35,012 bases of DNA from Pseudomonadota bacterium (GTDB lineage Bacteria > Pseudomonadota > Gammaproteobacteria > Steroidobacterales > Steroidobacteraceae): positions 1 through 35,012 of the forward strand of contig JAJYDK010000040.1 of NCBI GenBank assembly GCA_021777555.1, read 5' to 3'. The notes under the pieces were generated by a model. It was not told the origin of the DNA, ran no database searches, and saw only the letters and a list, made by a program, of their open reading frames with translations. Made by a program: the position numbers and the translations under genes. This document shows, one piece after another, positions 17,182-28,181 of this stretch. How positions within the stretch are numbered: the first letter of the stretch is position 1; every line of letters begins with the position of its first letter.

Positions 17182-17189
17182 AGGCCGCA

Positions 17190-17313
17190 CTCATCGAGAC
17201 CGGCTGAGGGATAGGCCCTTAGACGCCGGGGCAACCGCCAGGCCCAACCAGCCTGTAAAGGTGCCAACTCCTGCGATTCGATCGCCTTCCGGGCGGTCGG
17301 GTCGACAGATGAG
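17190..17313 (+). ncRNA. SAM-I (S-box) riboswitch
   Basis: The leader has the conserved S-box core in order: P1 strand CTCATC (17190-17195) followed by GAGA; GAGGGATAGGCCCTTAGA; the invariant GCAACC (17231-17236); AAGGTGCCAACTCCTGC (17258-17274); a P4 hairpin; and the closing P1 strand GATGAG (17308-17313). These blocks make up the S-adenosylmethionine-binding aptamer. It precedes metX-metB, a methionine pathway operon, the classic target. Binding of SAM should lower expression of the operon. Confidence 0.93.
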
Positions 17314-17361
17314 CGATACGCGAAGCTCCGTCCACTGCCGTGGCGGGGATGGTCGCGGCAA

Positions 17362-17427: not shown

Positions 17428-18459
17428 ATGAATGCCATAGCGCAAGCCCCGGTCACACCGGGATTTGAGGCGTATCCGCTGCCCGGATCGGCGTGCGAGG
17501 GCACGTTCGATATTCCCGGAGAGTTTGCGCTGCATCACGGTGGGACGCTTACCGCGGTGCGCGTGGGCTGGCGGATGGTGGGGCCCGAGCATGCCCCCGT
17601 CGTGTGCGCGTTGGGAGGCATCTCGGCCAGCCGCCGGGTCTGCCTGACCGAGAAGCCCCGTGAGAGCTGGTGGCAGGAAGTGGCCGGTCCCGGGCGGCCG
17701 CTCGACACCGAGCGGTTCCGGGTGCTGTCGTTCGATTTTCTCGGCGGCAGCGGCGAGACTTCGGGGCCTGCGCCGGGGGAGACCTTTCCGAGCGTCTCCA
17801 CCTACGATCAGGCCGAGGTGCTGCTCAGATTGATCGATCACCTCGGGGTGCGCTCGCTGCGCGCCATTGCCGGGGGCTCGTACGGGGGCATGGTGGCGCT
17901 CGCTTTCGCCGAGCGCTACCCGGAGCGGGTCGCTCGGCTGATCGTGTTGTGCGCCACCGATCGGCCCCATCCCCTCGGCACCGCGTGGCGCTCTGTGCAG
18001 CGCGACATCGTGCGCCTCGGCATCGAGAGCGGCCGGGCTCGCGAGGCCCTGGCGCTCGCCCGGGCGCTCGCCATGTCGACCTACCGCACGGGCGAGGAAT
18101 TCCAGGCGCGATTCGAGGGACTGCCCGTGCTCGATGAGGGTCGCTTCCGTCTTCCCGTCGAGCGCTATCTGCACGCGCGGGGCGAGGACTACGCGCTGCG
18201 CAATCGGCCCGAGGCCTTTCTCTGTCTTTCCGAATCGATCGACCTGCACCGGGTCGATGCGGCCCGCATCTGCGTGCCGACGGCCGCGGTGGCGGTGCGC
18301 GAGGACATGCTGGTGCCGCTGACGGATGTGCGCGGCATGGTCGCCCGGCTGCATTCGGCGAGACTGCACGAGATCTCCTCGATCTACGGCCACGACGCCT
18401 TCCTCAAAGAATCCCAACAGCTGCACGGCGTGTTCGCCGCGGCGCTGGACAGTCATTGA
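17428..18459 (+). CDS. metX: Homoserine O-acyltransferase, MetX type
   Basis: The 343-residue alpha/beta-hydrolase-fold enzyme activates homoserine for methionine synthesis. The triad is S151 (AGGSYGGM, the nucleophile elbow), D293 (VREDMLVP) and H322 (IYGHDAF). It is shorter than the usual 370-380 residues, and the oxyanion region reads ALGGISASRRV rather than the usual MetX sequence. The next gene encodes cystathionine gamma-synthase, whose best-known substrate is O-succinylhomoserine, so a homoserine O-succinyltransferase of the MetX fold is plausible. Sequence alone does not settle acetyl versus succinyl. It is controlled by the SAM-I riboswitch upstream; GGAG lies before the ATG. Confidence 0.87.
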   Translation: MNAIAQAPVTPGFEAYPLPGSACEGTFDIPGEFALHHGGTLTAVRVGWRMVGPEHAPVVCALGGISASRRVCLTEKPRESWWQEVAGPGRPLDTERFRVLSFDFLGGSGETSGPAPGETFPSVSTYDQAEVLLRLIDHLGVRSLRAIAGGSYGGMVALAFAERYPERVARLIVLCATDRPHPLGTAWRSVQRDIVRLGIESGRAREALALARALAMSTYRTGEEFQARFEGLPVLDEGRFRLPVERYLHARGEDYALRNRPEAFLCLSESIDLHRVDAARICVPTAAVAVREDMLVPLTDVRGMVARLHSARLHEISSIYGHDAFLKESQQLHGVFAAALDSH

Positions 18460-19679: not shown

Positions 19680-19695
19680 AGCCCGAGGTCGGGCT
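19680..19695. terminator. Small hairpin between convergent metB and leuB
   Basis: AGCCCG (19680-19685) and CGGGCT (19690-19695) form a 6-bp stem with loop AGGT in the gap between the convergent metB and leuB genes. No T-tract is present. It is a weak candidate for a shared transcription end. Confidence 0.3.
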
Positions 19696-25339: not shown

Positions 25340-26335
<996 letters not shown>

Positions 26336-26426: not shown

Positions 26427-26465
26427 AAAAACCCCGCAGCGGCTCTGGGCCGGTGCGGGGTTTTT
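26427..26465 (-). terminator. Attenuator terminator of the ilvC-leu operon
   Basis: A perfect 12-base inverted repeat (26427-26438 and 26454-26465) forms the stem CCCCGCA/TGCGGGG flanked by A5 and T5. On the minus strand it is followed by TTTTTGTTTG, a full intrinsic terminator 92 bases before the ilvC start. A terminator directly in front of a biosynthetic operon, after a short leader reading frame, is the hallmark of transcription attenuation. Its 5' arm can instead pair with an upstream leader segment at 26514-26524. It could also terminate transcription on the plus strand. Confidence 0.85.
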
Positions 26466-26496
26466 GGTGTCTTCTCTCGCCTCTGCCTGAGTGTCC

Positions 26497-26616
26497 TCAG
26501 GCGATCGCGAGGGCCCCGCACCGGCTGCCCGCAAGGAGCAGCAGTCCACTAAGAAGTACCGGCTCGAGCACAACTGCCGTTCCCGGCGAGCGGGTCGCCC
26601 CTGGGGGAATCGGCAT
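26497..26616 (-). CDS. Leader peptide of the ilvC-leu operon attenuator
   Basis: A 39-codon reading frame (ATG 26616, TGA ends at 26497) lies between a candidate promoter and the attenuator terminator. Residues 14-28 read AVVLEPVLLSGLLLL: 11 of these 15 codons are valine or leucine, including four leucine codons in a row. This is the pattern of ilv and leu leader peptides, where ribosome stalling senses charged tRNA. No strong ribosome binding site precedes the ATG. In-frame GTG codons at 26634 and at residue 16 are alternative starts that keep the leucine run. The stop lies 32 bases before the terminator stem. It was recognised from codon content and position, not from similarity. Confidence 0.8.
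   Translation of the reverse strand: MPIPPGATRSPGTAVVLEPVLLSGLLLLAGSRCGALAIA
26514..26524 (-). promoter_or_regulatory. Antiterminator segment in the leader
   Basis: On the minus strand the leader contains CCGGTGCGGGG, an 11-base perfect complement of CCCCGCACCGG (26460-26450), which includes the 5' arm of the terminator. Pairing of the two would disrupt the terminator. A segment further upstream, CCCGCTCGCCGG (26594-26583, leader codons 8-12), can partly pair with the same 26514-26524 stretch. This provides the third alternative expected in classic attenuation (1:2, 2:3, 3:4). Confidence 0.7.
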
Positions 26617-26680
26617 GTCGAGTGCGGGTACCACGGGCTTCGGTGCAGGACTGGGGTAAAAGGTGAAGAGGATGGGGTGG

Positions 26681-26710
26681 ATGTCAGCACAACCGTCGCC
26701 GTGTTGTCAA
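26681..26710 (-). promoter_or_regulatory. Candidate promoter of the ilvC-leu leader
   Basis: A consensus -35 TTGACA (26710-26705, minus strand) is followed after 18 bases by TGACAT (26686-26681), a weak -10. Transcription would begin near 26674, about 58 bases before the leader peptide start. The -35 is convincing; the -10 is not. Confidence 0.4.
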
Positions 26711-26789: not shown

Positions 26790-28181
26790 GTGCCACACGA
26801 GATGTTATTGAGCGCCGACCCGGGGGACAGTGTCCCCCTGTGGATCCTCACCGAAGGGGAGTTCCCCGGATGGCTCGCGACTCAGAGTCCCGCCGTCACC
26901 GGGTGGGTGCGCGCGCACGGGTTCCAGGCCGAGCGGCACCGGGTGCTGACGCTGCCGGGCGAGGGGGGCATTGGCGGGGCCGTGCTCGGCCTCGGGCCCC
27001 TGGCGGAGGCCGCGCAGCTGACTCCCTGGCATGCTGCGGGACTCACCGAGCGGCTGCCCGCCATGGCCTGGCATCTGGCGAGGCCGCTGCCGCCGCCTGC
27101 GGCCACACACTTCGTGCTGGGGTGGCTCCTCGGGGGCTATCGCATGAGCCGCTATCGACTGGCGGCCGCGGAGGGTGCGAGGGCGGCGCTCATTCCCCCG
27201 CAAGGGGCGGACCTGCGCTACGCGGTCGCCGCGGCTCGCGCGACGGCGCTCGCGCGCGATCTCATCAACACACCCGCCAACGACATGGGGCCCGAGGAGC
27301 TGGCGGACGCCGCGCTCGATCTCGCCCGCGAGCGCGAGGCCCGCTGCCAGGTGCTCATGGGCGGGGAGCTTGCGGGCTTTCCGCTGCTGCGGGCGGTCGG
27401 TGCGGCCAGTCCCCGCGCCCCCCGGCTCATCGACCTGCGATGGGGCGAGCGGGATGCGCCGCGCGTCACCCTGGTGGGCAAGGGCGTCTGCTTCGACACC
27501 GGCGGCCTCGATCTGAAGCCCGCAGCGGCCATGCTTCTGATGAAAAAGGACATGGGCGGAGCGGCCTGCGCCCTGGGGCTCGCGGACCTGCTGATGCGGC
27601 TCGAGGCGCCCGTGCAGCTGCGCGTGCTGATCCCCGCCGTGGAAAATGCCCTGGGGGGCGCCGCCTACCGACCGGGGGACGTGCTGCGCTCGCGCAAAGG
27701 GTTGACGGTGGAGGTCGGCAATACCGACGCCGAGGGAAGGCTGGTCCTGGCTGATGCGCTCGCGGCGGCCGAGGAGGAGCGCCCGGACCTGCTCATCGAT
27801 CTGGCGACCTTGACGGGCGCGGCGCGCACGGCGCTCGGGCCGGAGCTGCCCGCCGTGTACTCGAACCGGCCGGAGCTCACCGAGACACTGCGACGCGTCG
27901 GTGAGCAGGAGGCCGATCCGGTCTGGCCGCTGCCGCTGTGGCCGGGCTACGAGGACGAGCTCAGCAGCAAGATCGCCGATCTCGGCAACGTGGCCCCGAC
28001 GCCTTTCGCGGGCTCGATCATCGCGGCCCTCTTTCTGAAGCGCTTCGTCGGAGCCTCCACCGACTGGATCCACCTCGACCTGTACGCCTGGAACGCCAAG
28101 GACCGGCCAGGGCGCCCGGTGGGAGCCGAGGCGCAGTGCGTGCGCAGCCTCTACCGGCTGCTCAGGGCGCGGTATCCGTAA
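26790..28181 (+). CDS. M17 leucyl aminopeptidase family protein
   Basis: The 463-residue cytosolic metallopeptidase removes N-terminal residues from peptides. The active-site residues of family M17 are present: K231 and D236 ([15 protein letters not shown]), K243, D254 (MKKDMGGAA), and D313, E315 and R317 in the signature NTDAEGRL. The N-terminal domain is shorter and more divergent than in E. coli PepA (503 residues), closer to the shorter M17 proteins often annotated as leucyl aminopeptidase family. The start is uncertain between GTG 26790 and ATG 26802. It is divergent from the ilvC operon leader and may share its control region; a link between peptide-derived leucine and the attenuator is only speculation. 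Confidence 0.92.

Follow-up and report, generated by a model that had tools for sequence, protein, structure and literature searches.

The ilvC-leuA-ilvE-leuCDB operon of the Steroidobacteraceae-like bacterium studied here is, in our view, very probably controlled by ribosome-mediated transcription attenuation, with charged leucyl-tRNA as the signal sensed first and valyl-tRNA as the second. The operon lies on the minus strand of the analysed stretch of DNA (35,012 nucleotides; hereafter the window), and the genes 3' of the leader were assigned via NCBIfam as ilvC, leuA, ilvE, leuC, leuD and leuB, reaching down to position 19695. The leader contains a short open reading frame with a run of Val and Leu codons, an antiterminator strand embedded in that frame (segment 2), and an intrinsic terminator whose 5' arm harbors the complementary segment 3 (Table 1). 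The conservation of these parts, their spacing, and the covariation found for a local hairpin (P1) and, across distant clades, for the 2:3 pairing bear out the core of the sequence-only reading, which had proposed a leader peptide, 2:3 and 3:4 pairings, and Leu/Val control of the ilvC-leu operon.

Table 1. Features of the ilvC leader region and their positions in the window.
Feature	Position	Strand	Basis
-35-like element, TTGACA	26705..26710	-	conserved, 32/33 loci
Extended -10-like element, TGC TGACAT	26681..26689	-	conserved; predicted start near 26673
Leader ORF, GTG start, 45 codons, MVPALDMPIPPGATRSPGTAVVLEPVLLSGLLLLAGSRCGALAIA	26497..26634	-	ORF list and conservation
Control codons (Val, Leu), VVLEPVLLSGLLLL	26533..26574	-	codon conservation
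P1 5' arm, GCTGCTC, within the last Leu codons	26536..26542	-	covarying hairpin
P1 3' arm, GGGCAGC, adjoins the antiterminator strand	26524..26530	-	covarying hairpin
Antiterminator strand (segment 2), GCCGGTGCGGGG, in leader codons S-R-C-G	26514..26525	-	complementarity
Leader stop codon, TGA	26497..26499	-	position conserved
Segment 3, CCCCGCACCGGC, common to antiterminator and terminator	26449..26460	-	invariant, 33/33
Intrinsic terminator (3:4), 12-bp perfect stem plus 4 bp plus U-tract, -26.3 kcal/mol	26427..26465	-	inverted repeat, 99.6% of cells paired
ilvC, first gene of the presumed controlled operon	25340..26335	-	NCBIfam

The relatives used for comparison came from two sources. An ilvC gene is present in 54 of 60 genomes of the window's own group (its own genome included), and the best 30 loci from that search were numbered L001 to L030, L001 being the window itself. 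Named contigs, some of them labelled Steroidobacteraceae or Steroidobacter, contributed the best 80 of 579 confirmed ilvC places. An ilvC identity of at least 70% defines 58 loci (L001-L058), which include eight exact duplicates and hence comprise 50 distinct loci. Our detailed counts refer to 33 distinct, related loci, namely the own-group set of 30 plus L034, L043 and L048, which were chosen from the named contigs for their recognisable leader; the remaining 17 divergent loci and the eight duplicates were excluded from these counts. The antiterminator strand of L017 was positioned by hand.

The sequence-only reading had suggested that the ilvC upstream regions of relatives be aligned, and the Leu-rich leader and the complementarity are retained in all 33 loci examined in this way: the Leu-rich frame, the antiterminator strand and the terminator are found together in 30/30 own-group loci (window included) and in the three picked ones. 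Among the 17 excluded divergent loci, a BCAA leader followed by a terminator is visible in eight (L039, L040, L041, L047, L050, L053, L054, L057), doubtful in L036, L046 and L058, and unconvincing in L037, L038, L044, L049, L051 and L055. In four of the latter (L044, L049, L051, L055) the inner part of the terminator 5' of ilvC is different and a BCAA leader is not clear; these loci may have lost their leader or acquired another in its place.

A class-wide search with a covariance model built from the 33 leaders gave matches at E ≤ 0.01 in 23 of 274 genomes, one of them the window's own. The 28 loci then examined (L111-L138), each roughly 3 kb long, also take in the matches within the own genome; ilvC occurs among them, besides the window's own L111/L112, only in L116/L138 (a single place), L117 and L120. 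The other matches are probably plain GC-rich terminators, and the covariance model therefore gives no measure of how widely the family is spread. Within the window's own genome, the model found the leader-terminator element as a single copy; the remaining matches were the same terminator on the opposite strand and two hits at E values of 0.16 and 0.48.

With the CGG codon of the antiterminator strand taken as position 0, the leader frame has no stop between -75 and the shared stop codon in 33/33 loci, and the other two frames contain nine stops each, all loci pooled. The stop codon itself sits at +24 in 33/33 loci (30/30 for the own-group loci), and the gap runs of the aligned leaders are all multiples of three in 31/33, L019 and L022 being the exceptions. 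The 39-codon frame described in the sequence-only reading, which opens with ATG 26616 and closes with the TGA at 26499-26497, does exist in the window, but we rejected its start codon, which is not the conserved one: ATG 26616 is absent in, for example, L011, L013 and L014, whereas a GTG or ATG aligned with position 26634 is retained. An in-frame GTG/ATG is present between -93 and -114 in 31/33 loci; its counterpart in the window, GTG 26634, yields a predicted leader peptide of 45 codons. By eye, there is no clear Shine-Dalgarno sequence 5' of GTG 26634.

The distribution of the control codons within this frame is sharply bounded. Leu, Ile or Val is encoded at codons -15, -12, -9, -6, -3, 0, +3 and +6 in 33, 28, 1, 2, 1, 0, 0 and 0 of the 33 loci, respectively, so that the Leu run ends 12 or 15 nt ahead of the antiterminator strand. 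An open reading frame with a run of codons for the amino acids of the pathway is thus seen in every one of the 33 loci, and its translation is predicted. The scarcity of Ile codons that had been remarked upon is not typical of the family; the Ser codon in the LLSGLLLL stretch of the window is replaced by Ile in 16/33 loci. Codons for Leu, Ile or Val return 3' of the antiterminator strand (in 12, 22, 4 and 12 of 33 loci at +9, +12, +15 and +18), which speaks against attenuation, since a ribosome stalled there would mask segment 2.

The terminator consists of a perfect 12-bp inverted repeat, AAAAACCCCGCA (26465-26454) and TGCGGGGTTTTT (26438-26427), followed by a U-tract, just as the sequence-only reading had described it except that it lies 91 nt rather than 92 nt in front of the ilvC ATG at 26335. 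Its stem extends past one C-C mismatch through the pairing of CGGC with GCCG (26452-26449/26443-26440). The helix is mostly invariant among the 33 loci, a terminator-like hairpin occurs in 53 of the 58 loci scanned, and CCCCGCACCGG is found no more than 350 nt 5' of ilvC in 51/58 loci, corresponding to 43/50 distinct ones. An intrinsic terminator therefore separates the leader from the first structural gene. A simple scanner did not list the minus-strand terminator at 26465-26427, probably because its rules require a contiguous stem and a loop of 3-8.

Segment 2 is a perfect complement of segment 3 within the 5' arm of the terminator. The complementarity noticed earlier is hence real, although it spans 12 nt and not 11; a Watson-Crick complement of that length arose in only 3/5000 dinucleotide shuffles of the leader. 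The 248-nt leader as a whole folds at -123 kcal/mol, better than 200/200 shuffles (z -5.8). Since the two helices share segment 3, antiterminator and terminator are mutually exclusive. In the 33 loci, 88.6% of the cells of the 2:3 helix are paired, and the helix is nearly invariant; there is no covariation within this set, where near-invariance makes the alignment uninformative on the point. Evidence from covariation comes instead from 21 loci of distant clades, hand-picked because the end of the leader and a terminator could be seen in them, whose native 2:3 duplexes have a mean energy of -20.9 kcal/mol as compared with -19.1 kcal/mol for mixtures; 17/20000 permutations were as good. The best cases are L117, which pairs CGAGGTGCGGGG with CCCCGCACCTCG, and L064 and L099, which pair GGGAGCGG with CCGCTCCC. 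Exceptions exist: of 20 mixtures each, 20, 15 and 20 outdo the native 2:3 duplex in L067, L068 and L076, respectively. A polymerase-pause consensus just 3' of segment 2 is unsupported, a G at +1 being present in 10/33 rows as judged by eye.

A promoter-like site precedes the leader. In 32/33 loci, TTGACA is separated by 18 nt (17 nt in L028) from TGN plus TNNNAT, the -10 match being taken as the best of four spacings; L017 has none. This spacing predicts a transcription start near 26673. A promoter and terminator scanner with stricter rules reported no promoter at the leader, and it is conservation that marks the site as a candidate.

From these elements we infer the following course of events, from promoter and start site through translation and kinetics to the response to leucine and valine. 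Transcription would begin near 26673, and a ribosome would initiate at GTG 26634 and trail the RNA polymerase. With leucine and valine in plentiful supply, the ribosome would pass the control codons, cover segment 2 and halt at the stop codon, where it would still mask the GGGG of segment 2; segment 3 would then pair with segment 4, the terminator would form, and the transcript would end at about 26427. When leucine (or valine) is short, the ribosome would stall within the run, open P1 and leave segment 2 free, and segment 3, upon its emergence, would pair with segment 2 before segment 4 exists, allowing the polymerase to read into ilvC.

Modelling of the ribosome position is consistent with a kinetic choice between the two helices. 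We assumed a front edge of 11, 12 or 15 nt and a trailing footprint of 15 nt. For the window, one of six loci modelled along the frame, a 12-nt front edge gives a predicted 2:3 pairing of 0.99-1.0 for stalls up to codon -12 (the codon in the A site), of 0.67 at codon -9, and of about 0 beyond. Across the 33 loci, a stall at codon -12 leads to a mean predicted 2:3 pairing of 0.98 with an 11- or 12-nt edge and of 0.64 with a 15-nt edge. The drop-off in Leu/Ile/Val codons thus coincides with the point at which a 12-nt front edge begins to touch segment 2. The sequence-only reading had worried that only stalls at the earlier Val/Leu codons might free the antiterminator strand; the modelled stall at the last Leu codon leaves segment 2 free with an 11-12-nt edge, and this concern consequently falls away. 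In the model, a ribosome resting at the stop codon covers the GGGG of segment 2 with its 15-nt trailing footprint. A Leu run that ends approximately one ribosome front edge before segment 2, combined with a stop at +24, furnishes precise predictions that reporter constructs could address cheaply.

The fold with a ribosome footprint, which the sequence-only reading had likewise proposed, also shows that the full-length RNA still prefers the terminator: at equilibrium it is favoured in 33/33 loci without a ribosome and in 32/33 with a ribosome at codon -12. The 2:3 helix must therefore form before segment 4 has been made, and the device would be a kinetic switch. Attenuation has been portrayed as a race between ribosome and polymerase in the excerpt of PMC1183508. 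In the absence of a ribosome, and at the moment when segment 3 has emerged, a 2:3 pairing of at least 0.5 is predicted in 26/33 loci, the window included; it is 0.12 or less in L023, L026, L028, L029 and L043.

As an upstream arm able to pair partly with segment 2, the sequence-only reading had named CCCGCTCGCCGG (26594-26583), which is indeed present in the window. Exact copies occur in just two of the 50 distinct loci, the window and L002, and L003 has it with one mismatch; we rejected it as segment 1. The hairpin that does find support is the local P1, which overlaps segment 2 by two bases in the window. Both sides have changed in five of its seven pairs, and 82.3% of its cells are paired. 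Its native halves beat chimeras in 14 representatives, where 5, 7, 1 and 0 of 20000 permutations did as well at four cut points, and with 22 cores 0/20000 permutations reach the native folding. In single genomes under synonymous recoding the signal of P1 is weak (9/33 loci at or below 0.05, median 0.17). P1 is the part of "segment 1" that has support in the window, and it may act as a 1:2-type or a polymerase-pausing hairpin.

A more conventional possibility, to which we assign a modest but appreciable probability, is a four-segment attenuator of the trp/his type, in which a 1:2 protector (26650-26641 or 26594-26583) would sequester the whole of segment 2 without a ribosome. In the window, segment 2 finds its best partner on the upstream side in the 5'-UTR stretch TCCTGCACCG (26650-26641), at about -21.6 to -21.8 kcal/mol; 2/100 shuffles reach this energy, and the pairing is part of the minimum free energy structure. 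In addition, nine of the 33 loci (L020, L023-L029, L043) form a subgroup in which the main predicted partner of segment 2 keeps a constant position, a C-rich sequence between -31 and -17 that falls just 5' of the Leu run or inside it, and six of these nine are not, or nearly not, among the 26 loci predicted to form the untranslated 2:3 helix. Classical 1:2 pairing may hence operate in this subgroup, as far as the folding model indicates. Outside of it, however, the predicted partner varies from genome to genome, and over the 33 loci a long-range upstream partner does not exceed shuffles (median fraction 0.24; 5/33 at or below 0.05). The 26594-26583 segment pairs with segment 2 more weakly in the window (-19.5 kcal/mol) and is unconserved. 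Taken as a whole, a covarying P1 adjoins segment 2, and a partner for the entire strand is consistent only in the subgroup.

We deem it rather unlikely that the ribosome resting at the stop codon at +24 is itself the protector, with no conserved RNA protector in most members of the family. The prediction of an untranslated 2:3 helix in the 26 loci mentioned above favours this variant, whereas the equilibrium preference for the terminator in 33/33 loci and the existence of a subgroup with a likely protector argue against generalising it. If it were true, an untranslated leader should read through; the trp and his leaders behave the other way round, terminating more when their translation is lost.

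Explanations that dispense with attenuation altogether fare far worse. It is highly improbable that the terminator is an ordinary insulating one and the Val/Leu-rich frame a by-product of GC-rich sequence: spurious Leu-rich frames are common in GC-rich DNA, and the stem of this terminator, having A- and T-tracts, could act both ways, but the neighbouring gene at 26790 (plus strand; leucyl-aminopeptidase-like) is divergent from the ilvC operon, so that there is nothing upstream to terminate and the terminator at 26465-26427 serves the leader only, and the frame, the end of the Leu run and the stop position are conserved, with gap runs in multiples of three in 31/33 loci. We give equally little credence to a ligand-binding riboswitch, a T-box or a protein-controlled leader with an incidental open reading frame, for despite the strong overall structure and the strong conservation of segments 2 and 3, the leader matches no Rfam family at its gathering score (the best sub-threshold match is Thr_leader, with 22.8 versus 55 bits), and conservation falls in the codons and helices that attenuation explains.

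The preferred reading, ribosome-mediated attenuation, can be compared with known systems. According to the part of PMC6123439 considered here, repression of BCAA genes in Gram-negative bacteria proceeds primarily via attenuation, with putative leaders across species, for which it cites Vitreschak et al. (2004). The leader of the window would be a further case of leader-peptide attenuation, and its layout resembles that of the E. coli leu leader (leuL, b0075; leuABCD; NC_000913.3). In the E. coli leader, MTHIVRFIGLLLLNASSLRGRRVSGIQH, four consecutive Leu codons follow IG; the corresponding residues are GLLLL in the window and IGLLLL in many relatives, and in both leaders a strand complementary to the 5' arm of the terminator then follows within the coding sequence (in E. 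coli, GCGCGG as the best duplex, taken without a shuffle control). The E. coli terminator, AAACCCGCGCC..GCGCGGGTTT, possesses a U-tract, and the order of the parts is the same. The two leaders differ in detail. The E. coli attenuator controls leuABCD, whereas the operon in the window starts with ilvC; the Leu codons are CUA in E. coli and CUG, CUC or CUU in the window; and Val belongs to the control run in the window, unlike in E. coli. Counted from the first base of the final Leu codon of the run, the antiterminator strand is 17 nt away in E. coli and 12 nt away in the window, and from the end of the strand to the stop codon there are 25 and 14 nt, respectively. E. coli has the shorter complement, at -12.6 versus -30.4 kcal/mol in the window. 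The RF00512 Leu_leader model scores 14.9 bits on the leader stretch, below its gathering score of 50.

The enterobacterial ilvGMEDA and ilvBN attenuators likewise place a BCAA-rich leader peptide before BCAA genes; of the 32 residues in these leaders, 15 and 11 are BCAAs (as given in the excerpt of PMC6123439), whereas the peptide of the window contains mostly Leu and some Val. The ilvB leaders of the actinobacterial genera Corynebacterium, Mycobacterium and Streptomyces share with the window a terminator and a short Ile/Val/Leu open reading frame ahead of an ilv operon, but there the reading frame and the terminator hairpin overlap, and in S. coelicolor changing the codons was without effect (so far as the excerpt of PMC1262725 reports). 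The leader of the window, unlike these, has a clear antiterminator strand within the coding sequence and a terminator past the stop codon. None of the papers among the matches listed concerns an ilvC leader in the Steroidobacteraceae; the survey with the closest bearing on the subject, that of Vitreschak et al. (FEMS Microbiol Lett 234:357, 2004), may describe relatives.

Leucine-type attenuation would thus stand ahead of an operon beginning with ilvC in Steroidobacteraceae-like bacteria, and look-alikes are found 5' of ilvC in other gammaproteobacterial and in two alphaproteobacterial genomes. The alphaproteobacterial leaders (L064, Sphingosinicella terrae; L099, Oceanicaulis) lie within about 130 nt 5' of ilvC and have BCAA-rich ends; the sequence of their antiterminator pair is unlike that of the window, the layout alike. 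At the same distance from ilvC, six loci from Woeseiaceae, Chromatiales and other gammaproteobacteria (L067, L071, L076, L079, L082, L089) encode a peptide with an LLLLGRQSG-like sequence that ends at the stop codon. A shorter GCGGGT overlapping this stop could pair with the terminator arm in these six leaders, a pairing that is not better than in shuffles.

Two further observations concern the window and its genome. The ilvB gene (G000:C28:69012, L139; acetolactate synthase large subunit) sits elsewhere in the genome, and inspection by eye of the 500 bases 5' of it showed no leader with a BCAA run. The window also contains a SAM riboswitch (RF00162, 74.2 bits) at 17188-17315 on the plus strand, about 110 nt 5' of a metX-like homoserine O-succinyltransferase gene at 17428.
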